NCBI GenBank assembly: GCA_016223085.1
Contig: JACRPS010000034.1
Location: 1 to 64,000 of the forward strand
DNA from: Chloroflexota bacterium
GTDB lineage: Bacteria; Chloroflexota; Anaerolineae; Aggregatilineales; Phototrophicaceae
DNA length: 64,000 nt
Direction: 5' to 3'
In this document: positions 22,281-54,200 of the stretch, in pieces
Layout: each line of letters begins with the position of its first letter
How positions within the stretch are numbered: the first letter of the stretch is position 1
Notes under the pieces: generated by a model
What the model was told of the DNA's origin: nothing
The model's input: only the letters and a program-made list of their open reading frames with translations
Database searches by the model: none
Program-made: the position numbers and the translations under genes

Positions 22281-23186
22281 ATGACCCCTTCATCACGTAT
22301 TTCAGCCACCGACATCAATAAATGGGTGTGGTTATTATTTGTCCTGCCCGCCGTTGTGTTCGTCCTGCTCATGATTATATTCCCCATCGCTTATACGGTA
22401 CATCTCAGTCTGCACGAATGGAGCGGGTCAGCGACGCGCCCACCGACCCCTGTACAGTTCGGCAATTACGAAAATCTGCTTACACGCGACCCGCGCTTTG
22501 GTGAGGCAGTTCTTCGTACATTTCAGTTTACGGGTATTGCCGTTGCGGTTGAACTGGGGCTGGGACTTGGTATTGCGCTGCTGATTAACGGCCCATTTCT
22601 GGGGCATGGGATCGTCCGAGCATTGGTATTGCTGCCGATGGTGGCTACCCCGGTGGCAATCGCAATGGCCTGGTTGTTGATGTTTCAGCCGACAATCGGC
22701 CTGTTTAACGGGATATTGAAAACACTGGGTCTGCCGCCCCAGATGTGGATTGGGTCACAAGACCAGGCGTTAGGTAGCTTAATCCTGGTAGATGTGTGGC
22801 AGTGGACGCCGATGATGGTGCTTATTCTGCTGGCAGGGCTGACGACATTACCCTCTGAGCCTTTTGAAGCTGCACGTGTAGATGGAGCGAGCGCGTGGCA
22901 GCGGTTTTTCTACATGACCTTACCACTATTATTTCCGACGATGATTGCAGCCGTCCTGTTACGCTCGATAGACGCGCTTAAAACTTTCGACATCATCTAC
23001 ACGATGACGCGAGGTGGCCCAGGCTTTGCGACAGAAACGATTAACATCTACGGTTATGTCCTGGCTTTTGAGTATTTTCGTCTAGGTAATGCGTCCAGTC
23101 TTTTGGTCGTGTTTTTTGCGATTGTGCTCGGCATCAGCCTGTTCTTTGTGCAGATTCGTAAGCGTTGGGGAGCGACCTACGAATGA
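22281..23186 (+). CDS. ABC sugar permease, MalF/UgpA type
   Basis: A 301-residue inner-membrane permease with six hydrophobic helices. The cytoplasmic coupling loop is EAARVDGASAWQRFFYMTLP, the standard EAA motif that contacts the ATPase. The N-terminus WVWLLFVLPAVVFVLLMIIF is the first helix. It pairs with the following permease, whose start codon overlaps this stop. No ATPase gene is present, so the importer probably uses a shared ATPase encoded elsewhere, as many CUT1 systems do. Confidence 0.93.
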   Translation: MTPSSRISATDINKWVWLLFVLPAVVFVLLMIIFPIAYTVHLSLHEWSGSATRPPTPVQFGNYENLLTRDPRFGEAVLRTFQFTGIAVAVELGLGLGIALLINGPFLGHGIVRALVLLPMVATPVAIAMAWLLMFQPTIGLFNGILKTLGLPPQMWIGSQDQALGSLILVDVWQWTPMMVLILLAGLTTLPSEPFEAARVDGASAWQRFFYMTLPLLFPTMIAAVLLRSIDALKTFDIIYTMTRGGPGFATETINIYGYVLAFEYFRLGNASSLLVVFFAIVLGISLFFVQIRKRWGATYE

Positions 23187-24076
23187 GCGGTGTAAAATCA
23201 CAACCCATCCAGGCTTCACTCGGTCAAGCTGAAAAACATGCCGCGCAGCGAAATCGCTCTGCGCTCATGATTTCGCTGGGTATCCTTCGTTATGTGCTCG
23301 TTATTGTGGTGGTTGTGGTACTCGTCTTTCCCTTCGCCTGGATGCTGTTAAGCTCGTTCAAAAATCAGATTGACATCACCACCAGCCGTAATCTGTTAAG
23401 TTTCACCCCAACGCTGAACAACTATCGCAACGTGTTCGAGCAGCAAAACTATCTGTTATTTTTGTTCAATAGTTTGCTGGTCGCATCGGCATCTACTTTT
23501 TTCTCACTGGTACTGGGGCTACCCGCTGCCTATGCTATCGCCCACAACAAACGGATGACCTGGTTCGGTGTCGTCCTTTTGACAGCGCGCATCATTCCTG
23601 GCATCACGTTTTTAATTCCCTGGTATATTATTTTCGGACAGTTGAAGCTGCTGGGTTCGTACTGGGCACTTATCCTCAGTCACATGCTTGTTGGGCTTCC
23701 GTTCATTGCCTGGGTGATGATTCCATTCTTCGAAAGTCTGCCGCGCGAACTCGATGAATCGGCGCTGATTGATGGCGCATCGCGGTTTGGGGCTTTCTTC
23801 CGCATTGCGTTGCCGCTGGCCGTGCCAGGCATCATTACCGCCGCTATCATGGCTTTCATTTTCTCCTGGAACAACTTTATGTTCTCGCTGGTGCTGGCGG
23901 GAGATGAGACCAAAACCCTGCCAATCGCCATTTTCAATTTCCTATCCTATTCGAGCGTTGATTGGGGCGGACTGATGGCAGCGGCGGTTGTCATTACCCT
24001 ACCCGTACTGATTGTAACCCTCTTTGTGCAACGCTATATTGTTGCCGGATTAGTCGCCGGGGCGGTAAAAGGCTGA
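23183..24076 (+). CDS. ABC sugar permease, MalG/UgpE type
   Basis: A 297-residue permease with six helices and the coupling loop ELDESALIDGASRFGAFFRI. The ATG overlaps the preceding TGA (ATGA), a sign of translational coupling; GGGGAG lies just upstream. The frame is open 18 nt further upstream, but the overlap start is the natural one. It ends in the GLVAGAVKG C-terminus typical of MalG-like proteins. Confidence 0.93.
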   Translation: MSGVKSQPIQASLGQAEKHAAQRNRSALMISLGILRYVLVIVVVVVLVFPFAWMLLSSFKNQIDITTSRNLLSFTPTLNNYRNVFEQQNYLLFLFNSLLVASASTFFSLVLGLPAAYAIAHNKRMTWFGVVLLTARIIPGITFLIPWYIIFGQLKLLGSYWALILSHMLVGLPFIAWVMIPFFESLPRELDESALIDGASRFGAFFRIALPLAVPGIITAAIMAFIFSWNNFMFSLVLAGDETKTLPIAIFNFLSYSSVDWGGLMAAAVVITLPVLIVTLFVQRYIVAGLVAGAVKG

Positions 24077-24255
24077 GCAGTCGTTATCGTGCCGGAACCC
24101 GCAGGAATTGTCATAGACCCTTTGACCGGCCACAAAGCGGATGGCCGCCGACCTCGAATTGGATTGCCTTAGGTCTATCCACAGCCCGCAAATTCCACGA
24201 CACTCATACAATCAGTTTTGATCCTGTAGCGAAATCCGGTTAGAAAGGGGTCGTG

Positions 24256-25604
24256 ATGATGCGGGAATTACTCCAATCGGCTGCCGCGCGGGCCAGCACC
24301 TACCTCGAAAATCTGGACAGCCGCAGCGTTGCGCCCTCGCCACAGGCGCTGGCACGGCTGGCGGAACTGGACGAAGTCCTGCCCGATCAGCCCTGTGATG
24401 CGGAAAGCGTTCTTGCGCTGCTGGACGAGACCGGCTCACCGGCCACCGTCGCTACCGCCGGCAGCCGGTTCTTTGGGTTCGTGGTTGGCGGCTCGCTCCC
24501 GGCAACCCTCGCGGCCAACTGGTTAGCCGGGGCGTGGGATCAGAATGCGGGGATAATCGCCCTATCGCCCACTGCGGCCAAACTGGAAGCCGTCGCCATG
24601 AGCTGGCTGCTGGCCGTGCTGGGGCTGCCAGCCGGCGCCGGCGTCGGGTTTGTCACCTGTGCGACGACCGCTAACTTTACCGCGCTGGCGGCGGCCCGCC
24701 ATGCCCTGCTGCAACAGGCGGGCTGGGATGTTGAAGCACAGGGCCTGTTTGGCGCGCCGCCGATTACGGTCATTGTCGGCGACGAGGTGCATGTCAGCGT
24801 CCTGAAGGCGCTGATGCTGCTGGGGTTGGGGCGCGACCGGGTGGTGCGCGTGCCGGTGGATGGACAGGGGCGAATGCGGGCGGACGCGCTGCCAAAGATG
24901 GCCGGGCCGACCATCGTTTGTATTCAGGCGGGCAATGTTAATACGGGGGCGTTTGACCCGGCCAGTGAAATCTGTGCTGCTGCCCACGAAGCCGGCGCGT
25001 GGGTGCACGTGGATGGCGCATTCGGGCTGTGGGCAGCGGTGTCACCCAGGTACGACTATCTGACAGATGGCGTTGCCGATGCCGACTCCTGGGCAACCGA
25101 CGCGCACAAGTGGCTAAACGTGCCTTATGACAGCGGGTTGGTCATCTGCCGCCATGCTAACATCTCCGGGCGGCGATGTCGGTCAGTGCCGCTTATCTGG
25201 TGCAGACCGCCAACCGCGAGCCGGACGATTATACGCCGGAGTTTTCGCGGCGGCCGCGTGGAGTCGAGGTATGGGCGGCTTTACGGTCGCTTGGCCGGGC
25301 AGGTTTGGCCGACCTGATCGAACGTACCTGCCGCCATGCCCGAAGGTTTGCGGAGGGCTTGCAGGGTGCGGGTTACACAGTTCTGAACGATGTTGTCCTG
25401 AATCAGGTGCTGGTCTCGTTTGGTGATGCGGACACCACGCGCCGGGTAATTGCTGCCCTGCAAGCCGAGGGAACGTGCTGGTGTGGGGGAACGGTGTGGC
25501 AGGGGCAGGCCGCCATGCGGATTAGCGTGTCATCTTGGGCCACGACGGAGGCAGATGTGGAGCGGAGTCTGGAGGCAATCATTCGTGTGGCTAGATCACA
25601 GTAA
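24256..25604 (+). pseudogene. PLP-dependent group II decarboxylase, frameshifted
   Basis: About 450 residues when the frame is restored. The first part (to about 25158) carries NTGAFDPASEI, HVDGAFGLWAA and the PLP-lysine motif DAHKWLNVPYDSGL, all typical of aromatic amino acid/glutamate-type decarboxylases. At the segment reading RHA the frame breaks; the other frame then continues with LRAAMSVSAAYLVQ and runs to the normal C-terminus at 25604. Restoring one base near 25158-25160 gives RHA-x-HLRAAMSVSAAYL without a gap, so a single-nucleotide deletion explains everything. It may be a true recent inactivation or an assembly error. AAAGGGG precedes the chosen ATG. Substrate cannot be assigned. 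Confidence 0.85.
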
Positions 25605-27466: not shown

Positions 27467-27865
27467 ATGAACCTCGGACAACTGTACCTGTTTCTCGAAC
27501 CGATACACTACTGGCTCAGCCGGGTGGGGCTGGCAGCAGCGGTGCTGATGGCGCTGGTCGGCGTGTACATCGGCATCATCCGCAAACGCGACGTAACCCC
27601 CTGGTTCCGGCGCGCGACCTACACCATCGCCGGCGTGATGGCTGTGCAGGCGCTCATCGGCGCGATCCTGTACTTTCTCATCGGCGTGCGCCCGTATGAG
27701 GAAGTCCACCTGATTTACGGGCTGGCAGCAGTACTGGCGCTGCCGTTTTTTATCTTCGTGGAAGTGACTGCCAAAAAGCGCCCGGCGATGGGCAGCTACA
27801 TCTGGGGCTTTGCCATCCTCGCGGGGGTGCTCATCCGCAGCATCATGACCGGAGCAGCAGGCTGA
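27467..27865 (+). CDS. Small four-helix membrane protein
   Basis: A 132-residue protein with four hydrophobic helices (about 18-38, 49-70, 80-100 and 110-127). Conserved-looking polar positions include EPIHYWLSR, the RKRDVTPWFRRATY loop and YEEVHLIYG. The His residues inside or next to helices (IHYW, VHLIYG) would suit haem or quinone binding, but that is speculation. It sits between a membrane protein and the probable selenoprotein on the same strand, which hints at a redox role. Confidence 0.68.
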   Translation: MNLGQLYLFLEPIHYWLSRVGLAAAVLMALVGVYIGIIRKRDVTPWFRRATYTIAGVMAVQALIGAILYFLIGVRPYEEVHLIYGLAAVLALPFFIFVEVTAKKRPAMGSYIWGFAILAGVLIRSIMTGAAG

Positions 27866-27901
27866 TGATTTTCCGTCAGCGTGATAATACGATTCTTACT
27901 C

Positions 27902-28945
27902 ATGTCCGCTACAGTCTGGGTGACGAACAGACTGACACGGGATGATGTAGCAATGCTGGCAACGAAGGTCGAAGAACGATTCGAGACTTTACCCTCCACC
28001 GAAAGGCTCGGTATCCGCGAGTACAACTTCACGCACTTTCAACGAAAGCACCTCGTCCGCGACGCGCAGCGCACGCTGCACAACCGGGGGATTCTGCCCG
28101 GCATGGTCGCGCCGGACTTTGAGCTGCCTACCACCGAGGGGCGCACGGTGCGTTTAAACGATCTGCGCGGCAAGCCGGTGCTGCTGCATTTTACGTCCCG
28201 CACCTGACCGGCGGCCAACGGCTCGGTCGAGCCGCTGAAAAAGCTGCACACCCGCTGGGGTGACCGCGTGCAGTTTGTTGAGGTGTTTATCCGTCAGGCG
28301 CATCCCGGACCGAACGCGCCGCCCTACCGCACGTTTGAGCAGAAACTGGCAGACGCGCGGCGCTTCAAACGGGAAGAAAATCTGCCCTGGCCGCTGCTGG
28401 TGGATGATCTGGCCGGCACAGTGCATCAGGTGTATGGCACGCTGGCTGACCCCACCTATCTGATTGACGCCAACGGGCGCGTGGCCTATTACAACATGTG
28501 GACGCTGGCGCCCGCGCTGCACAAAGCGATTGAGATGCTGCTCAAACAGCGCGGCTGGGGCATCGTAGAGGGTGGGATTAACCACACCCCGAACCTGCTG
28601 CCGACGATCATCGGCGGCTGGAAAGGGCTGCGGCGCGGCCTGCCGCAGAGTTACGTTGATCTGGAACTGGCGCTGCCCACGTCGGCAACCATGATCTGGC
28701 TGGGGAACAAACTCCGTCCGCTGCTGGGGCCGCTGGCGCTGCGCGCCGAACCGATTCCGACCGGTCTGAAACTGGCGGCGGGTGCGGGTCTGGCAGTTTC
28801 CGCCCTGATGGCGGCGCTAACGGTGCGGCAGCGGCAGGAAGATCAACGCCGCGCCGAACTGGAACGCGCTCTGAAGGTAGACGACCGTCTGAACGGGTTG
28901 TTGATCGCCGCGCGCGGCCTGGCGCGACGGGCGCTGCGGCGGTAG
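27902..28945 (+). CDS. Probable selenoprotein, deiodinase/redoxin-like, UGA read as Sec
   Basis: A protein of about 347 residues if the in-frame TGA at 28205 is read as selenocysteine (residue 102). The coding frame, composition and homology-like sequence continue across the TGA without a shift: [10 protein letters not shown], then Sec, then [19 protein letters not shown]. This matches the thioredoxin-fold layout of iodothyronine deiodinases and related bacterial redoxins (GSxTUPPF; then VFIRQAHPG versus YIEEAHxSDGW). Upstream is the standard redoxin entry [15 protein letters not shown] bacterial SECIS-like hairpin follows the TGA. After the redoxin domain (to about residue 220) comes a unique tail with one hydrophobic helix. 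The start could be GTG 27881, ATG 27902 or ATG 27953. The alternative is a nonsense mutation, which I consider less likely. Confidence 0.8.
28219..28234 (+). promoter_or_regulatory. Candidate bacterial SECIS hairpin
   Basis: CGGCTC and GAGCCG form a perfect 6-bp stem closing a GGTC tetraloop; the loop begins 17 nt after the TGA. CA/TG pairs extend the stem beyond an A-C mismatch. The E. coli fdhF SECIS has a GGUCU apical loop at almost the same distance, which is the part SelB recognises. Confidence 0.7.
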
Positions 28946-28963: not shown

Positions 28964-30064
28964 TTACGGGATTCTCCGCCAGCCGGAACGCAGCCTGACC
29001 TGTCCGGCCTCGCCCAGCGTCATCACGCCGTTCCATTCATAGGTCTTCGGCCACTGCTTAAAAAAACGCAGCAGCGAGAAAACCAGCCGCGCGCTCCGGT
29101 GCGGGTCGCCGGGCTGCCAGCCGCCGGAGGGATGCAGCCGCAGCCGCACTTCGTTCCCCGTGCGTTGGACTTCATATACGCCCGTCACCTGCCCGGCTGC
29201 CACATGGCTGGTGGCAACAAACGCGCCGGTTACAGCAGCGCCGTCTTTCAGCGCGGCGGCGTCAGGAAACGGCGGCGTGAAGGTGACGCCGGATGTGTGG
29301 TCATCACTGCGAACGGTCATGGACACCAGTTCAGGATGGCCGTTGTGGTGGCTTAACCGATACTCCACACCGTCCCGGCTGACCGTTTGCGACTGCCCGG
29401 CGCTGATCGGCGTCAACTGGCCGTCGAAGGCTTTATTCCAGAAGGTAATGACCGGCGCGCCGCAGTAGCGGGCGATGTACACCCACTCCCCGCCCAGCGG
29501 CAGCGGCACGGGAATCAGCCGGCAGGGTTCGCCGTCAATCGTGATCGTCAGTTCCGTGCTCCTGCGCCGCGCGAACGAAAAGTGGTACAGCCAGAACAGC
29601 GGCAGATATTCCGGCTGTTTTACCGCCACGCCCATCGGCGCCAGCAGCGCGAAGGCCGGCGCCGGCTTTTCGCGGTGTTCCAGCGCGCGAATCACCACGT
29701 GCCGCCCGGCCAGATCGTTAAAGGCCACGTCCACGTCTGCGCCTGCCGGGCCAATCTCAAACCGGGCGCGCTCGAACGTCGTCGGCGTCCACGCATTCAG
29801 ACCGGCCCCGATGGAATAGGACTGGCGGTCGAGCGTCAGCGACGGCTCAAAATACACATCCACTTTGCCGTCCAGGTGCGCCAGCAGCACCAGCAACCCG
29901 CGCCCGTGTACGTCGTCGTCTATGAACTGAATCTCCAGCCCTTTGTAGACCTTGCCTTTGCGCCAGTCGGCCAGGAACAACCGCTTTTTGTAGTCGGCGG
30001 ACAGGTTAAACGGGGAATAAAAAACGCCTTCTCCCGGTTCGGCGTAGAGGGCCTGTAACTGCAT
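28964..30064 (-). CDS. Conserved hypothetical protein
   Basis: A 366-residue soluble, beta-rich protein without signal peptide or membrane segment. The N-terminal half has FNLSADYKKRLFLADWRKGKV; the C-terminal half has two repeated strand patterns around VSRDGVEYRLSHHNGHPEL and VYEVQRTGNEVRLRLHP. I recognise no domain. The start is the ATG at 30064, directly after an in-frame TTG. It is convergent with the selenoprotein gene, 18 nt apart. Three palindromes lie upstream of its start. Confidence 0.65.
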   Translation of the reverse strand: MQLQALYAEPGEGVFYSPFNLSADYKKRLFLADWRKGKVYKGLEIQFIDDDVHGRGLLVLLAHLDGKVDVYFEPSLTLDRQSYSIGAGLNAWTPTTFERARFEIGPAGADVDVAFNDLAGRHVVIRALEHREKPAPAFALLAPMGVAVKQPEYLPLFWLYHFSFARRRSTELTITIDGEPCRLIPVPLPLGGEWVYIARYCGAPVITFWNKAFDGQLTPISAGQSQTVSRDGVEYRLSHHNGHPELVSMTVRSDDHTSGVTFTPPFPDAAALKDGAAVTGAFVATSHVAAGQVTGVYEVQRTGNEVRLRLHPSGGWQPGDPHRSARLVFSLLRFFKQWPKTYEWNGVMTLGEAGQVRLRSGWRRIP

Positions 30065-30168
30065 CAATCATGCTCCGTGTTGCTTTGGTTGAGTAGACGA
30101 AGCCGATTATACCAGACGAGGCGACTGGAAAGGCCGGTGGTTACGGACAGGGGGTTGGTGAATTGTAA

Positions 30169-30381: not shown

Positions 30382-31647
30382 TTAGCTGCCCGGCGTCGCT
30401 GTTGGGGTGGCTTCCACCGCTGAACCGCTGCCCGCGCCGGACGAGTCACCCGTTCCATCCGACCCCATCATGCCGCCAAACATCAACGCCATCGCCTGCT
30501 CGGCGGTAATCACCTGCGCGGCAGTGGGCGCTTCGATGGTGGGGGCGCTGTTGAAGTTGTCATAGTTGATGGTGAAGTCGAAGTTGATGACGGGTGCGCC
30601 CTGGCTGGTATCCTCGCCAGTGGCGCTCATCATGTTTTGCAGGTCCCAGTTGAAGGTGGTCTGCTGGCGACGCACGAAGTTATCATCCACATCAATGTAC
30701 TGTGTGCTCTCAAAGGCCAGCCCTTCAAACATCTGCTGCATCATCTGCATGGCCTGCTCGCGGTCAGCGTCACTCATTGTCTCGCCGCCGGCGGCTTCCA
30801 TCTGCTGCTGCATCAACTCCTGGAACGCTTCGCTGGACATCAGGCCAGCATAGTCTACACGGGTGCGGAATACCGCCACCGCTTCACCGCCAATGTCGTC
30901 GTCGTCCAGCCGTTCGACGGTGAGAAATTCGCCCAGTACGTCGGGATCGCTGAACCGGCTGAAGGTGGACAGGTCAAAGCCGGGTGGCAGCATGCCCTGA
31001 ATGCCGCCCTGCGCGTCCATCTGCTCCAGCGACTCTTCCATCGCGCTCCGCAGCAGGCGCGACAGTTCCAGCCCGAACCAACCGTTGGGGATGTTTGCAT
31101 CCGGCAGCGACTCCGCCAGCGACGACAGATCGAGATAGGCAACGCCGTTCACCAGCCGCAGTTCAACCGACAGCGTGTCGGGGATTTGCTGATCGCCCGC
31201 CGCCTGGCTGACCAGTTCTTCCGGCATTGTCAGCGTCAGATTGAGCTGTCCCTGGAACGAGTTCACCGCTTCTTCCAGCAGTTGCGGCAGTTCCTGCATG
31301 TTTTCCAGCAGCACATCCGGCGCACCCTGGAGGGATTGCAGGGTGGACATGGTCTCCGCGTCCACGCTGTACGCGCCGTCGCCATTTAGCTGGAACGCCA
31401 GCGAATCAAACGGCGTGTCCGGGATGTTGGAGATATTCAGGTTCGCCACCAGATTAACGGTCGCGCCGGTCAGCCCCGTCATGGCCTGCTGTGACGCCAG
31501 TAGAATCTGGCAGTCGGCATCGGCCAGCGTGCCACAAAAGACGGTTGGTAAATCGCCGCTGCCCGCTTCACCCTGGCCTTCCTGCGCCAGCGCCACGCCG
31601 CTGACCATGACCAGCAGCACGGCCAGGAGGATCAACAGTTTCTTCAT
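30382..31647 (-). CDS. Exported protein, paralog 1 of a tandem pair
   Basis: A 421-residue exported protein. The signal peptide MKKLLILLAVLLVMVSGVAL ends near ALAQ with no lipobox. The mature N-terminus has FCGTLADADCQILLASQQAM, with two cysteines that could form a disulphide, then NISNIPDTPFDSLAFQLNGD. The middle is beta/alpha mixed and Gln/Glu-rich; the C-terminus is a Gly/Ser/Thr tail ending in PTATPGS. I chose the ATG preceded by GGAG rather than the ATG four codons upstream. The neighbouring upstream gene is a clear paralog. The overall look (surface lipid- or ligand-binding fold, as in LppX-type proteins) is only an impression; I cannot name the family. Confidence 0.75.
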   Translation of the reverse strand: MKKLLILLAVLLVMVSGVALAQEGQGEAGSGDLPTVFCGTLADADCQILLASQQAMTGLTGATVNLVANLNISNIPDTPFDSLAFQLNGDGAYSVDAETMSTLQSLQGAPDVLLENMQELPQLLEEAVNSFQGQLNLTLTMPEELVSQAAGDQQIPDTLSVELRLVNGVAYLDLSSLAESLPDANIPNGWFGLELSRLLRSAMEESLEQMDAQGGIQGMLPPGFDLSTFSRFSDPDVLGEFLTVERLDDDDIGGEAVAVFRTRVDYAGLMSSEAFQELMQQQMEAAGGETMSDADREQAMQMMQQMFEGLAFESTQYIDVDDNFVRRQQTTFNWDLQNMMSATGEDTSQGAPVINFDFTINYDNFNSAPTIEAPTAAQVITAEQAMALMFGGMMGSDGTGDSSGAGSGSAVEATPTATPGS

Positions 31648-31739
31648 AACGTTCTCCATAGCTGTAAAACGATGACCGCTATGCTAAACCAGCACCATTG
31701 GATTTTCGTTAAGCGCAGCATTACAAAGTGGCAAAAAGC

Positions 31740-31900: not shown

Positions 31901-33037
31901 CTAGCTTTTCGGCGCAGCCTCCATGCCGCCCATAAACATCTGCATCGCTTCTTCCGCCGTCATGACGGTGGCGTCTGCCGGCGCGGTGATGGCCGGCGCG
32001 GCGTTAAAGTCGCTGTAGGTCGCGCTCAGATTCATGGTGATAACCGGCGCAGCAGCGGCGGACTCGCCAACCGCGTCCATCAGCGACGCCATGTCCCAGT
32101 TGAAGGTCATGTCCATGCCACGCATGGTGCTGTCATTCAGGTTGATGGTGTAGATGGCCTGCATGTCCAGCCCTTCGTACATCCGGGCGACCATTTCCAG
32201 CGCCGCGTCCACGTCAGCCTCGCTCATCGTCTGGCCGGTCGCTTCCATCTGCTGTTTCATCAGGTCACGGAAGGCCGGGTTTTCCATCAGCGCCGCCATG
32301 TCCATCGTCATCTGGAACACCGCCGCGCCGTCACTGTCCGCCAGCCGTTCGAGCTTCAGATAGCTTTCGAGGAATGCCGGGTCGTAAAACTGGCTGAAGG
32401 TCGAGGGGTCGAAGCCGGACATATCCAGGTCTTCAAGCTCAGACATAGACATTTCCATGACGTTGCCCAGCAGCTTCGCAATTTCCAGCCCATACCAGCC
32501 GCTGGGGATACCGGCTTCCGGTAGCGCTTCCGCCAGCGAACTGAGATTGATGTACCCCACGCCATCCACCAGCATCAGGTCTACCGCCAGCGTGGACGGG
32601 AGGGCAGTTTCCGATTGTTCGGCCAGCGCCACGAGTTCATCTGGCAGCGTCAGCACCAGGTTCATCTGGCCGTCGAAGCCGGCAAACAGGTCTTCCAGCA
32701 GTTTCGGTAGCTGGCTCAGGTTCTGAAACAGGGCCGCCGGGTCGCTCTGCATGGCAGCGTATTTCTCCATCAGCCCCGGTTCGACATGATACACGCCCTC
32801 GGCCCTGAGGTTAAACGCCAGCGAGTCAAACGGGGCGTCCGGGATATTGCTCACCGTTAGATCGAGACTGGCGTCCATCGAGGCGCTTTCCAGCTTTGCC
32901 ATTGCCTCGGTAGAAGCGGTGAAAAGCTGGCAGTCCGCCTCGGACAGCCCGCCGCAAAAACCCGGCGGCAGTTGCGCGAAAGCCGATCCGCCGATGGTCA
33001 GCAGCAGAACGGTCAGCAGGACGATCATCTTCTTCAT
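31901..33037 (-). CDS. Exported protein, paralog 2 of a tandem pair
   Basis: A 378-residue paralog of the next gene. The signal peptide (MKKMIVLLTVLLLTIGGSAF, cleavage near AFAQ) is followed by FCGGLSEADCQLFTASTEAM and TVSNIPDAPFDSLAFNLRAE, which align closely with paralog 1. Both share an internal GWYGLEIAKLLGNVME-like segment. It lacks the Gly/Ser tail of paralog 1. The start is the ATG 8 nt after AGGAG; the frame is open a further 24 codons. Gene duplication with divergence is clear; the function is unknown. Confidence 0.75.
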   Translation of the reverse strand: MKKMIVLLTVLLLTIGGSAFAQLPPGFCGGLSEADCQLFTASTEAMAKLESASMDASLDLTVSNIPDAPFDSLAFNLRAEGVYHVEPGLMEKYAAMQSDPAALFQNLSQLPKLLEDLFAGFDGQMNLVLTLPDELVALAEQSETALPSTLAVDLMLVDGVGYINLSSLAEALPEAGIPSGWYGLEIAKLLGNVMEMSMSELEDLDMSGFDPSTFSQFYDPAFLESYLKLERLADSDGAAVFQMTMDMAALMENPAFRDLMKQQMEATGQTMSEADVDAALEMVARMYEGLDMQAIYTINLNDSTMRGMDMTFNWDMASLMDAVGESAAAAPVITMNLSATYSDFNAAPAITAPADATVMTAEEAMQMFMGGMEAAPKS

Positions 33038-33351
33038 GCTCATTTCTCCTGAAGTGGTGCGCCGGACAACCCGGCGTAACTCCGCGACATTGAGGTGGGC
33101 GTTCAGCACTGGCAGGCAGCACTGAGCGCCTAATACTCATTATACGCAGGAGCAGCCACAGGAGTTGCCCGAAAAAATGGGGGATGGTTTCGACCGGGGC
33201 CTGTCCGCTGACTCCAGGGCAGGTAAATACTGAATAAAGTGTGAAAGTCGAAATTCACGCTTAAAAACATTACGATTCCGGTCTATATTATAAGCAACCC
33301 TTTTTAAGCCGCCCGTGTGATTTCAATACCAGCCAGTGGCAGAAGATCATC
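33038..33351. other. Divergent intergenic region
   Basis: It separates the leftward exported-protein pair from the rightward STAS-like gene and is AT-richer than its surroundings. CTATATTATAAG about 60 nt before the rightward start could hold a -10 element, but no good -35 is spaced correctly. No repeats of the main families are present. Confidence 0.5.
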
Positions 33352-33869: not shown

Positions 33870-34985
33870 ATGAGCAGACGACCTCCGGTTTATCCTTTTA
33901 CTGCCATCGTTGGTCAGGAGCGCATGAAACGTGCCCTGATCCTAAACGCGATTGATATGCGCATTGGCGGCGTACTGATTCGCGGTGAACGCGGCACGGG
34001 CAAATCCACCGCTGCCCGCGCGCTGGCCGCCCTGCTGCCGGAAATTGATACGATTGCTGAATCCCCGTTTGGTGACGACCCGGCCCACCCGGAAACGTGG
34101 TCGGATGACGTGCGTGAGCGGAAGGAACGGGGGGAATCCCTGACGATTAAACGCCGCAAAATCCGCTTTGTGGACCTGCCCGTCAGCGCGACCGAAGACC
34201 GCGTGGTGGGCACGCTGGACATTGAAAAGGCGATTCAGAAGGGCGAACGGCACTTTGACCCGGGCGTGCTGGCGGCGGCCAACCGGGGCATCCTGTACGT
34301 GGACGAAGTGAACCTGCTGGACGACCACGTGGTGGACCTGCTGCTGGACAGCGCCGCGATGGGCGTGAATGTGGTGGAGCGCGAAGGCATCAGCTTTTCG
34401 CATCCGGCGCGGTTTATCCTCGTCGGCACGATGAACCCGGAAGAAGGTGATCTGCGCCCGCAACTGCTCGACCGCTTTGCGCTGTCGGTCGAGGTGCATG
34501 GCATCGCCGACGCGCAGGAACGCATGGAAATCCTGGAACGGCACATCGCCTATGAAGCCGACCCGGAGGGCTTCCGCCACGAATGGGCGACGGCAGAGCA
34601 GGAACTGGGCCAGCGCATTGCCGCGGCGCGGGAAATCGTGGACGAGGTTATGTATACCCGGCGCGATCTGTACACGATTGCCAACATCACCAGCGGCCTG
34701 CACATTGATGGTCACCGCGCCGATCTGGTCATCCTCAAGACCGCGCGCGCCCAGGCCGCCTTTGAAGGCCGGACCCACATCACCAACGACGACATTCTGC
34801 TGGCCGCCGAACTCGCCATCCCGCACCGGCTCAAACGCGGGCCGTTTGCCGACGCGCAGATGAGCGTCGCTGCCATCGAAGAACAGATGGAACAGATTGC
34901 GTCGGAATGGGGCGAAGGCGATGAGATCGAAGACGCCGCGCCCAGCGACGATCAAACGGCAGTGAAAAAAAAAGTCAGCAGCTAG
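33870..34985 (+). CDS. BchI/ChlI-like AAA+ ATPase
   Basis: A 371-residue ATPase of the magnesium-chelatase subunit I family. Features: YPFTAIVGQERMKRALILNA at the start, Walker A GERGTGKST (39-47), FVDLPVSATEDRVVGTLDIE, Walker B GILYVDEVNLLDDHVVDLLL and GTMNPEEGDLRPQLLDRF. These are family hallmarks. No BchH/CobN or pigment genes are near, so a role in chlorophyll synthesis is unlikely from context; the ATPase plus a VWA partner suggests a stand-alone chelatase-like or MoxR-like remodelling machine. A strong promoter precedes it, and the VWA gene follows after 20 nt. Confidence 0.92.
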   Translation: MSRRPPVYPFTAIVGQERMKRALILNAIDMRIGGVLIRGERGTGKSTAARALAALLPEIDTIAESPFGDDPAHPETWSDDVRERKERGESLTIKRRKIRFVDLPVSATEDRVVGTLDIEKAIQKGERHFDPGVLAAANRGILYVDEVNLLDDHVVDLLLDSAAMGVNVVEREGISFSHPARFILVGTMNPEEGDLRPQLLDRFALSVEVHGIADAQERMEILERHIAYEADPEGFRHEWATAEQELGQRIAAAREIVDEVMYTRRDLYTIANITSGLHIDGHRADLVILKTARAQAAFEGRTHITNDDILLAAELAIPHRLKRGPFADAQMSVAAIEEQMEQIASEWGEGDEIEDAAPSDDQTAVKKKVSS

Positions 34986-39759: not shown

Positions 39760-40674
39760 ATGGCGATCTCCAACCGCGAGTGGGTTGGGCGGATTCTGGA
39801 TGAATTAAAACCGGCGCTGGGAAACTATGTCGTTCAAAACTACTTTCAGCATCACCCCAACCGGGATTATATCACACAAATCAAGCAGGATTTAAAGGCG
39901 CACAGCCAGTCGCGCGATGTGCGTTTAAGCGCCATCCACGATGAGGAGTCGCTGCTGCGGGAAGTGGACGTGCAGGGGTGGCTGCGCTTAATCCGGCACG
40001 GGTCGGCCACCAACCCGGACAACAACCAGCGCGTCAATATTTTTAAGGGACGTTTTACGCCGCTGATGCGCAGCCACATGCGGGAACTGCTGGACTATCG
40101 CAACACCTGGGCGCACCAGAAACCAATCAGCACCGAGGACGCTTATTACGTCGCCGTGATCGCCGCCCGACTGCTGGACGACATCAACGCCAAAACGCAG
40201 GCGCAGGCGGTGCGGGAGATCGCCAACCGGCTGCTTCAAATGGGGCGGACGGCGGCATTTAGTCCGGTGGGCGCGCCCGTACTGTATATGGTCAACGAAG
40301 CCGAGGCCGAAGGCTGCACCGAACCGATCACGCTCTATCCCGGCGACTGGATTGAGTTCCGCTATCAGGGGGATGACATCCGGCAGCACCCGCTGCCCGC
40401 CCGCGATCAGCGGCTGATTATCGGACGCAGCCCCGCCACCAGCGATGTGGCGCTGCCGGACAAAAAAGTGTCGCGGGTGCACCTGCAAATTGCCCGCAAT
40501 CAGGATGAAGAACTAACGCTCACCGATTTACGCAGCGCCAATGGCACCTGGCTCAACGGCAGCCGGATTCCGCCGAACACGCCGGTGAGCTGGCTGCACG
40601 GACAGGCGGTGATTATCGGCAGCACGGAACTGGTGCTGCGGCTGAACCACGATCAGGAACGCCGAACGGCCTGA
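39760..40674 (+). CDS. Swt1-type HEPN domain fused to FHA domain
   Basis: A 304-residue protein. Residues 1-150 form an all-alpha HEPN domain of the Swt1 type, with the catalytic-type R114-x4-H119 motif (RNTWAH) expected of a metal-independent RNase. Residues about 190-300 form an FHA domain with GRS, the phosphothreonine-binding SRVHLQI and NGTWLNGSRIP motifs. FHA domains bind phosphothreonine, so the RNase could be directed by a Ser/Thr kinase. A kinase gene lies 19 kb away. The start follows AGGAGG by 6-7 nt. HEPN proteins often act in defence or toxin-antitoxin systems; no antitoxin of the usual MNT type is adjacent. Confidence 0.88.
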   Translation: MAISNREWVGRILDELKPALGNYVVQNYFQHHPNRDYITQIKQDLKAHSQSRDVRLSAIHDEESLLREVDVQGWLRLIRHGSATNPDNNQRVNIFKGRFTPLMRSHMRELLDYRNTWAHQKPISTEDAYYVAVIAARLLDDINAKTQAQAVREIANRLLQMGRTAAFSPVGAPVLYMVNEAEAEGCTEPITLYPGDWIEFRYQGDDIRQHPLPARDQRLIIGRSPATSDVALPDKKVSRVHLQIARNQDEELTLTDLRSANGTWLNGSRIPPNTPVSWLHGQAVIIGSTELVLRLNHDQERRTA

Positions 40675-51203: not shown

Positions 51204-54200
51204 ATGCGTGAATACGGCGACGAATACGACGATCTGCGGGACGATGACGAGTACCTCGACGAGTACGATGATCCCGATGAAGAAATTGATGAGGATGATG
51301 AAGACGAGGAGTCGGCTCCATCCACGTCGCGCGCCAATCCATTCACCAAGCCGGGCAGCACATCCGGTTTGCCTGGGCCGTCGCGCCCCGGCAGCTTTGG
51401 TAGCGGCAGTAGCGCATCACGCCTGCCGGGCAGCGTAGGGCCAAACCGTCCCGGTGGTTCGCCTTCCGGTGGCACGCCGGGCAGCGGGACAGGAAGCCCG
51501 TCGGGCGCGCGACCCTTCGGCAGCGGCACGCCGGGCAGTGGACAGGGCAGCCCTTCTGGCGCGCGCCCGTTCGGTAGCGGGTCGTCGGCGCCGGGCGGTG
51601 GACAGGGTAGTCCGTCCGGGGCACGCCCGTTTGGCAGCGGCACGTCGGGCAGTGGACAGGGCAGCCCTTCTGGCGCGCGCCCGTTTGGCAGCGGTTCGCC
51701 TTCAGGCAGCCCATCGGGCGGGTCAGGCAATCCCCCTGGCACGCGGCCCTTTGGCAGCGGTTCGCCGACCAGCAGCACACCGGGCAGCGGGCAGGGCAGC
51801 CCTTCCGGCGCGCGTCCGTTCGGTAGCGGGTCGTCGGCGCCAGGCGGCAGCACACCCGGCAGGCGCGATGAACCGAAAAAAGAGGATAAACCGGGCGGCG
51901 GGCTGGGTGGCAGACTCGGCGGTTTACCCGGTGGGCTGGGGTCTCGCCTAGGCGGCGACAAACCCGATAACAAACCGGCCAGCAAGCCGGCGGATTCCGG
52001 CAAGGGCGGCATCGGCGGGCTGTTTAACCGGAACAAGGATGCTGCTTCCAATAAGCCGGCCACGCCGAAAAATAAGACAGGCGGCGGGCTGGGTGGCGCG
52101 CTGGGTGGCCTGACTTCGCGTTTTGGCGGCGGCAAGAAGGATGACAAAAAACCGGGCATGGCCACCGGCGCCTCATCGTTTGGTCGCAGTTCTGCCCCGC
52201 CGTCATCCGCCACACCGGGCGCGAAACCGGGCAGCAGCACGTTTGGCAAGCCGTTTGGTGCGTCCGGCGGCACGTCCAGCATTGGCGGCGCCCGACCGGG
52301 CGCTGCGCCAGGCCGACCGGCAGAAAAGAAAGGGCTGTTCTCCTTCCTGCAACGCGGGAAAAAGGACGACAAAAAAGCGGCCAAACCGCGCCAGAGCAAA
52401 GCGCCGAAGGTGGAGACCGGTCAGGGGCTGACGCTCGATAACAAGCTGGACATCCTGGGCGTGGCGCTGGTGCTGGGATCGCTGGTGCTGTTTTTCAGTT
52501 CGATCTCTGTCACCAAAGGCGCGCTGACCGAACGGATCAACCTGGCACTCGCCAATCTGTTTGGCTGGGGCGCGATTGCCATTCCGCTGGCGATGCTGGC
52601 GGCGGGTGTCTGGCTAATCGCACGGCATTTTGGCGACGAAGCGCCGGTGATTGACCGCACGCGCCTGATCGGCGTGGTGGTGTTGTATCTGGGGCTGCTG
52701 ATCTTCCTCCAGTTTGTGGAGTCGTTCAGCTACGCCGGTGTCACCAATCTGGCACAGCTTCGTGTCCAGCTGGAACTGTCGTCCGCGTTTGGTCGCGGCG
52801 GCGGCGGTATTGGCGCGCAGTTGTATTACCTGCTGGTCGCCAATGTGTCGGAAATTGGCGCGTTTTTTGTCACGGTTGGCTGGCTGCTGGTGGGGGTCAT
52901 GCTGACCGCCAACCTCAGCTTCTACCAACTGGCCGTGTTTCTGATTAGCGCCGGGCGCAGCTTCCGCGATGCGCGCGCCCGCCGTGCCCAGGCGAGGGCA
53001 GCAGAACAGGCGGCGAAGGCGCTGGCCGCGCAGCAGACCGCCCCCGGTATCACAGTGACAACGCCGCCGCCGGAGCAACTGCCGATGCCGCAGACGCAGG
53101 CGCTGCCTGCCGCGTCGCAGACGGCAGCCCCCGCGCTGCCGGAACCGCCGCGACCGGCACGCGATATTCCGATCACCATCGGCGGGCGCACCATTACCAG
53201 CGCCTTCAACAGCGGCGAACTGGTCCCGGCGGAAACCGCGCCGGCAGCGCCAGCAACCGGTTCATCAGTACCGGCCAGGCCGGATGAAGGCGGGCGTGGC
53301 GGCCTCGGTTCGCGGCTGCGCGGCGCAGTGCCGTCGTTCAGCCTGCCGGGCAGCAAACCCGCTGACGCCAGCAAGCCGGTCAACGATAAACCCGCGAAGT
53401 CCGACGATAAACCAGACACAGCCAAACCCGCTGCGCCGGGGGTGCGCGAACGGCTGTTTGGCGCGAAACCGGCGACAGCCAGCGCCCCGACGGCGGAGAC
53501 GCCAAAACCAGCAGTCACATCACCGGTAGCCGGAGGCAAACCAGAATCGGTACCCGCCACCGCGCCAACGACGGAAACGCCAGCATCAACGCCTGGCGGC
53601 AATCGCTGGATGCGCCCCGGCGGGCAGCCGCCAACCACCGCGCCGGAAACGGCAAAGGCAGTGGAAGAACCGGCGGCACGGCTGGGCGACCTGATGAAAC
53701 CGGCGGCGAAAACGCCGGAAACAAAGTCTGGGGAAGAACCGGCAGCCCGGTTGGGTGATCTGGTGCGCCCGTCGTCAGCGCCGCCTGCCAAGAAGCAGAC
53801 TGGCTCGTTCCCGGTGGCGAAACCCGCGGACAGCCCGGCCAAACCGGCTGAAAGTCATCCCTTTGGCGCTCCCCCACGCGCAGAGCCGGCAGCGAAACCC
53901 GCTGCGCAGCCGTTTGACGACGACATTGTGGATGACGATGACGACCAAATGACCGAATCGGAGGAACTGCGCAGCCTGCCGCCGGCCCGCCCGAAAGGGT
54001 TTATCGAACCTCCGCCGAAGCCGGAGGAACACAAAACCCGCTTTGGCGTCAGCGTCTTTGGCGCGCCCCGCCCCGGCGCGACTCCGCCCGGCAAACCCGA
54101 ACCGGCGGACGACAAACCGCCGCTGACCGACCGCATGAACCGCCTGAACGCGATTCGCTCCGGCAGTCTAGCGCCGGAGAAGGATGGCGACAAAGCAGAT

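Follow-up and report, generated by a model that had tools for sequence, protein, structure and literature searches.

Does the TGA at positions 28205-28207 end a short gene, or is it translated as selenocysteine (Sec) within a longer one? The question is raised by a locus on the plus strand of the window, by which we mean the whole stretch of DNA analysed here, 64,000 nt from a Chloroflexota bacterium. An earlier note on this DNA had claimed that the TGA interrupts one continuous frame, and the letters bear this out: it is the sole stop codon from ATG 27902 to the final TAG at 28943-28945, and 245 further codons are open after it. Numbered from ATG 27902, the TGA is residue 102, and the frame read through it (27902-28945), with one internal TGA and with homologues, would encode 347 aa with Sec102. 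We consider it very likely that 27902-28945 encodes a genuine selenoprotein. An in-frame UGA occupies the active-site position, a hairpin with compensatory changes lies downstream, the genome has a complete set of Sec genes, and protein homology runs through UGA 28205.

Extent of the coding region

The coding region is probably shorter at its 5′-end than this frame. Because homologues begin near residue 18, ATG 27953 is a likelier translation start than ATG 27902, and the more likely coding extent would be 27953-28945, with a product of 330 aa carrying Sec85; no clear ribosome-binding site was seen upstream of ATG 27902 or ATG 27953. The ORF list holds the locus as two pieces, 27881-28207 and 28268-28945, and the earlier statement that gene calling yields two proteins stands for these listed ORFs alone, not as gene-caller output. 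TGA is the ordinary stop codon of the neighbour genes 22281-23186, 23165-24076 and 27467-27865. Five other long frames bridged by a TGA are present in the 64-kb window. As candidates, the frame at 40672 was set aside because it reads like an FHA-like gene that simply ends there, and the frame at 52423 because it reads like an antisense frame.

A hairpin of SECIS type downstream of the TGA

Downstream of the TGA, CGGCTC (28219-28224) and GAGCCG (28229-28234) pair into a stem with the apical loop GGTC (28225-28228; GGUC in the RNA), and on the basis of covariation and folding we annotate 28219-28234 (+) as a predicted SECIS hairpin. The stem begins at the 12th base past the TGA and 17 bases separate the TGA from the loop, which reproduces the geometry given by the earlier note. 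Rules for bacterial SECIS elements, as set out in a review (PMC13188914), allow a loop of 3-9, a stem of 4-16, a G in the first two loop places, a distance of 16-37 nt and an MFE of at most -7.5; the hairpin lies within all of these, with a loop of 4 (GGUC), a stem of 6, a distance of 17 nt and -9.5 kcal/mol. Its resemblance to a bacterial SECIS, proposed earlier, is thus upheld by the published rules and by the covariation described below. The folding result is divided: the 16-mer 28219-28234, picked after the fact, folds at -9.5 kcal/mol with a z of -3.26 (3 of 200 shuffles were equally good), but folds of 46, 66 and 30 nt at the UGA gave z values of only -1.55, -0.16 and -1.28. Longer RNA folds around the UGA were little or no better than shuffles and were dropped as support, and an Rfam scan of 28100-28400 returned three hits, all below the gathering score and none of them a SECIS.

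A comparable hairpin, defined as six Watson-Crick pairs with a loop of 3-9, a G in the first two loop places and a distance of 16-37 nt, follows 62 of the 1758 TGA triplets on both strands, TGA 28205 included, and turned up in 7.5% of 20000 versions of the sequence recoded with synonymous codons. Because of these two frequencies the hairpin at this one site could be chance, and when alone it is weak evidence; its exact geometry occurs after only one of the 1758 triplets.

Comparison of the hairpin across relatives, judged from aligned sequences, is strong evidence. The covariation set consisted of 14 Sec sequences, namely the clade of 13 described below and L033 (an earlier run used the first eight), and the Sec forms L039 and L050 stand outside both sets. 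The loop is GGTC in 12 members and AGTT in two. Stem cells are paired in 83 of 84 cases (98.8%) compared with 75.8% in shuffles, 18 cells are changed on both sides compared with 7.3, and the covariation score is 0.549 compared with 0.153; none of 500 shuffles reached any of these three values. Changes on both sides occur at four of the six pairs (e.g. GC to UA, or CG to GC to AU), a count reached by 47 of 500 shuffles, and the number of further pair types was reached by 156, so that three of the five measures lie beyond all 500 shuffles and two are not exceptional. These shuffles ignore relatedness and give no probability. When the partner strand was slid along, pairing in the 14 sequences dropped to 36-70%. 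In a separate UPYC group (n = 18), a distinct hairpin with a loop of 5 nt also covaries, 96.3% paired and with a score of 0.363 versus 0.128 in shuffles (0 of 500 reached it); its weaker measures were reached by 33 of 500 shuffles (pairs changed on both sides) and by 189 of 500 (further pair types).

Five relatives without Sec entered the stem count, from which L034 was left out. The Cys forms retain 4, 3 and 3 of the six stem pairs, and two Asp-bearing relatives retain all six with a CCTG loop in which the loop G is absent. Because the Asp forms keep 6/6 pairs without the loop G, part of the stem pairing may be due to coding constraint.

Relatives and the residue at the Sec position

Three loci 60-64% identical to the window protein, L019 (titled Armatimonadaceae) and L020 and L021 (titled Thermomicrobiales), all carry TGA at the same place; six other loci of that search were distant redoxins. 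In a phylum sample, 36 of 400 genomes matched at E ≤ 1e-10, the window's own genome included, and the 33 loci read have at the Sec column U in 16, C in 13 and D, A, S and G in one each; redoxins of the CxxC type account for 11 of the 13 C-bearing loci. Alignment A1 matched 27 of 158 genomes at E ≤ 1e-20 in the class to which L020's genome belongs, and the 30 loci read have U in 22, C in 4 and D in 2, with the column unreached in 2. Seven listed phylum-sample matches and one class match lie outside the loci read. Counted once each, the TGA-bearing sequences number 34. The tree was built from 45 rows, leaving out the 11 CxxC redoxins among the 33 phylum loci, L078 and L084, which end short of the column, and L058, L059, L061, L074 and L077, which repeat loci or proteins already included. 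Its Sec column has U in 34 rows (the window among them, on which we annotate 28205-28207 as a UGA probably read as selenocysteine), C in 6, D in 2 and A, S and G in one each.

The window falls in a starred clade of 13 (100/99), every member of which has TGA, and its neighbour in the tree is an unstarred group of six Cys or Asp forms (89/76). The expectation that the column would hold Sec or Cys is thus borne out for all 13 clade rows and for 40 of the 45 rows (U 34, C 6), but five others have D, A, S or G. The earlier note had taken such other residues in homologues as speaking against the Sec reading; they do occur, in those five rows, and the clade itself is TGA throughout.

Close relatives differ at this column, L032 and L062 having Asp and L065, 77% identical, having Cys, and these differences are a natural exchange at the active site; the genome of L032 (G347) has both SelA and SelB. 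The deiodinase-like L036, L037 and L038, whose residues at this column are Ala, Ser and Gly, are hence perhaps members without redox activity. Two genomes have three deiodinase-like matches each, G401 (L058, L086 and one more match) and G402 (L059, L085 and L087), and L087 has a TAG within the matched region. The locus L032 was reached a second time, as L061, from the other search centre, so that the genome of the window and that of the Thermomicrobiales bacterium belong to a single phylum in the classification used. NCBI gives the phylum of the Thermomicrobiales genome as Thermomicrobiota, which GTDB counts to Chloroflexota. A viral origin was set aside, because a search of viral contigs with A1 gave no relative.

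Selenocysteine genes in the genome

The window is contig C28 of a 37-contig, 6.03-Mb genome, 97.85% complete with 4.44% contamination. The earlier note had proposed a search for selA, selB, selC and selD, and all four are present: SelA at 449 bits, SelB at 373 bits (over the cut-off), SelD at 368 bits with one in-frame TGA (L009, G000:C35:83024-83959), and a tRNA-Sec at 73 bits whose anticodon is tca by ARAGORN. The in-frame TGA of selD is itself followed by a predicted stem with a GGA loop 20 nt downstream; a second stem, whose GGG loop would lie at 17 nt, can be drawn by eye and is not the minimum-energy fold. Because SelA occurs in 321 of the 400 genomes of the phylum sample, these genes are necessary rather than telling, and are weak evidence. 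The same test covered 16 genomes with the TGA form, those first met in the class search lying outside it; SelA was found in 14 (in pieces only in G400 and G401) and SelB over the cut-off in 15. Among the 16, G217 (86% complete) had neither SelA nor SelB over the cut-off, and SelA was not found in G270.

Alternative explanations for the TGA

A nonsense mutation or sequencing error in a decaying redoxin gene, with a hairpin that arose by chance, would fit the absence of the gene from all 40 relatives searched (see below) and the comparable hairpins after 62 of 1758 TGAs. Decay would not be expected to leave TGA in 13 of 13 clade members, 245 open codons past it and a covarying hairpin, and we regard this explanation as very improbable. 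We rate as equally improbable that the locus holds two genes, one for a short peptide whose stop is at 28207 and one for a second protein with its start at GTG 28268. Each piece does appear in the ORF list, but the relatives with Cys or Asp (L032, L062 and L065) are one unbroken chain over both parts, and breaking the protein here would divide the thioredoxin fold at the active site.

The frame is open whatever residue the TGA is given, and UGA might be read as another amino acid (e.g. Trp) by suppression or a changed code. Neighbour genes nevertheless end in TGA, the tRNA-Sec of the genome carries the anticodon tca, and where relatives lack TGA their residue is Cys, Asp, Ala, Ser or Gly and in no case Trp, which makes this the most far-fetched of the three. 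Translation of the UGA as selenocysteine is the preferred reading in what follows.

Fold, active site and possible function

The read-through protein matches Pfam AhpC-TSA at 53.6 bits (cut-off 26; a broad superfamily model) and Redoxin at 36.7 bits, both within residues 66-198, and the match to T4_deiodinase (PF00837) within the same span is marginal, at 27.3 bits against a gathering score of 27. Its best NCBIfam match is NF038285 (deiodinase_rel), at 72 bits and below the cut-off of 250. In alignment A3, PF00837 matches 20 of 21 members and NF038285 matches 21 of 21 at E ≤ 0.001. Against solved sequences, the profile of the 21 A3 members ranked Dio3 (2.8e-23) and Dio2 (2.3e-17) before ResA (4.8e-13); with the window sequence alone, Dio3 came third after two bacterial thioredoxins. 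A core model (residues 60-216, four sequences, pLDDT 81.8) has a thioredoxin fold and matches the DsbE-like 3gl3 (Z 19.1), Dio2 (18.6 over 154 residues), ResA (about 18-17), Dio3 (17.3) and AhpE (17.0), and in Foldseek ResA-like chains came before Dio3, which was at rank 49. With Z from 19.1 to 17.0, comparison of the predicted fold cannot separate a deiodinase from ResA or AhpE. From Pfam, the core model and the fold matches, we predict a thioredoxin-fold redoxin or deiodinase-like domain at about residues 67-197 (28100-28492). The whole-chain model (four sequences, pLDDT 51.6) was too poor to use, as was its fold for the C-terminal extension.

The 13 clade members have this C-terminal extension in common; it is conserved in alignment A1 at about residues 217-289 (28550-28768), belongs to no known family, and lies past the Pfam matches, which end by residue 198. 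It is followed by a hydrophobic stretch at residues 290-308 (28769-28825), a hydropathy peak and possible membrane anchor. All 13 members have such a peak near the C terminus, with 19-residue maxima of 1.31-2.18; 10 of them reach the usual threshold of 1.6 and three are weak.

The relay of animal Dio2 is given as Ser127, Thr129, Tyr157, Glu160, His162 and His182 (PMC11592359). With residues counted on the profile-to-solved-sequence alignment, the clade keeps Ser in 12 of 13 members, Thr in 11 (Ser in the other two) and His162 in all 13, but all 13 have Gln for Glu160 (every one of the 32 other tree rows has Glu), Tyr for His182 and F, L, I or V for Tyr157. Most or all of the 13 retain S-x-T-U-P and the 'AHP' His. 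Position 105, three after Sec, is A in two members, T in 11 and Cys in none, and 10 of the 13 proteins, that of the window included, have no cysteine at all. Hence 'deiodinase-like', as the earlier note called the protein in assigning it to the deiodinase/redoxin family, is right for ancestry, the profile being nearest to Dio3 and Dio2, but as a description of activity it is no more than putative, three of the six relay positions being changed.

In the mechanism that we propose, SelB carrying Sec-tRNA would bind the hairpin and the ribosome would insert selenocysteine at UGA 28205. The product would be a thioredoxin-fold protein of the deiodinase-like family, which its hydrophobic C-terminal stretch may tether to the membrane, and it might work as a one-selenol reductase in the style of a 1-Cys peroxiredoxin or a deiodinase, its oxidised selenium being reduced by an outside thiol or thioredoxin. 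Because the window protein has no cysteine, the selenol should not be resolvable within the chain, and we see about an even chance that the protein is a one-selenol enzyme that relies on an outside thiol or thioredoxin. Most likely as its substrate would be a peroxide or some other small molecule, oxidised or halogenated.

A true reductive dehalogenase, whose selenol would strip iodine or another halogen from small aromatics as animal deiodinases do, would agree with Dio3 and Dio2 as the nearest solved sequences, with the retained S-x-T-U-P and 'AHP' His, and with the lack of a resolving Cys beside Sec. The replacement of Glu160, His182 and Tyr157 and the missing Dio3 and Dio2 insertion (9 and 12 residues) between 'EAHP' and 'HR' speak against it, and we think it quite unlikely. 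A wider scenario, which we also hold to be unlikely, is a laterally spread, membrane-tethered, cysteine-free lineage with selenium as its sole chalcogen nucleophile, a rebuilt Gln/Tyr relay and a substrate of its own, possibly in organohalide dehalogenation, for which Cys would be a poor substitute; on this last point, relatives without Sec have not only Cys at this place but also Asp, Ala, Ser or Gly.

Origin of the gene

A neighbour protein (33870-34985) has counterparts of 95, 91 and 90% identity in the closest genomes of the genus, and tetranucleotide usage of the contig correlates at r of 0.88-0.90 with stretches around the four Sec genes (0.85 for C22). With five stretches taken from other genomes, three of them only about 6.8 kb long, r is 0.51-0.68. 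Hence the contig is native, and a contaminant contig was ruled out. The gene was found in none of 40 relatives (16 of the same genus, 8 of the same family and 16 of the same order) at E ≤ 1e-15, and is thus unique among 41 related genomes, its own included. Eight genomes of the same genus match the two membrane genes upstream at the DNA level, the matches end by 27865, and the selenoprotein region has no DNA match; past the upstream genes one of these genomes has an isocitrate-lyase-like gene (by reading) and a second has another gene. Because none of the 40 relatives searched has the gene although the contig is native, lateral acquisition is likely and is the simplest reading, probably from a donor group including Thermomicrobiales-type bacteria. 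It looks as if a selenoprotein gene together with its SECIS entered a genus without it and met a resident Sec machinery.

Next to the gene, 28964-30067 (-) encodes 367 aa without a Pfam match at E ≤ 0.01 or a DNA match in the eight same-genus genomes, and it may have arrived together with the selenoprotein gene. When all flanking ORFs were compared with one another, most matches were frames of the gene itself and their shadow frames, and conserved gene neighbours were set aside; one downstream or flanking ORF is common to L019, L029 and L031. Elsewhere in the window, a pyridoxal-dependent decarboxylase gene (24253-25604) looks broken: ORF 24253-25317 matches the family, and the C-terminal part is apparently in another frame (25176-25604), through a frameshift or an assembly error. 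Two similar, secreted-looking proteins (by reading) at 30382-31659 and 31901-33109 (-), with DNA 65% alike over about 400 bases, appear to be a tandem duplicate.

Comparison with known systems

The clade shares with animal Dio2 (9h48) and Dio3 (4tr3) the thioredoxin fold, Sec, S-x-T-U-P and a conserved His (Dio2 His162), and differs from Dio2 in the Gln, Tyr and F/L/I/V at Glu160, His182 and Tyr157 and from both in lacking the insertion between 'EAHP' and 'HR'. Animal deiodinases have their membrane anchor at the N terminus, whereas the possible anchor of the clade protein is at the C terminus. The window protein resembles AhpC/TSA peroxiredoxins and ResA/TlpA redoxins (PF00578) in fold, and scores higher with their Pfam model, but unlike them it has the deiodinase-type 'AHP' and neither CxxC nor any other Cys. 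NF038285 is its best NCBIfam match, yet the 250-bit cut-off of that model misses it by far.

Bacterial deiodinase-like selenoproteins were described in 2005 from the Sargasso Sea, in Sec and Cys forms and with a supposed redox role (PMC1088965). The window protein is like these members of PF00837 in its probable Sec in a deiodinase-type context, its predicted coding-region SECIS and the Sec and Cys forms among its relatives. The bacterial motif is given as UxxC in two reviews (PMC9312934, PMC13188914), and the 2008 ocean survey, in its accessible portion, lists no motif for deiodinase-like proteins (PMC2398784). Unlike the UxxC proteins, the window clade has A or T three after Sec and a C-terminal extension; such a cysteine-free clade with the extension was not met in the open-licence papers searched. 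Among the bacterial kin of a hormone enzyme it is a clear additional subfamily. Its cysteine-free members offer an unusually clean model for a lone selenol without an internal partner, and the neighbouring Cys and Asp forms are natural replacements for comparison. The kind has been known since 2005, and within it the cysteine-free clade is a distinct variant of bacterial deiodinase-like selenoproteins.
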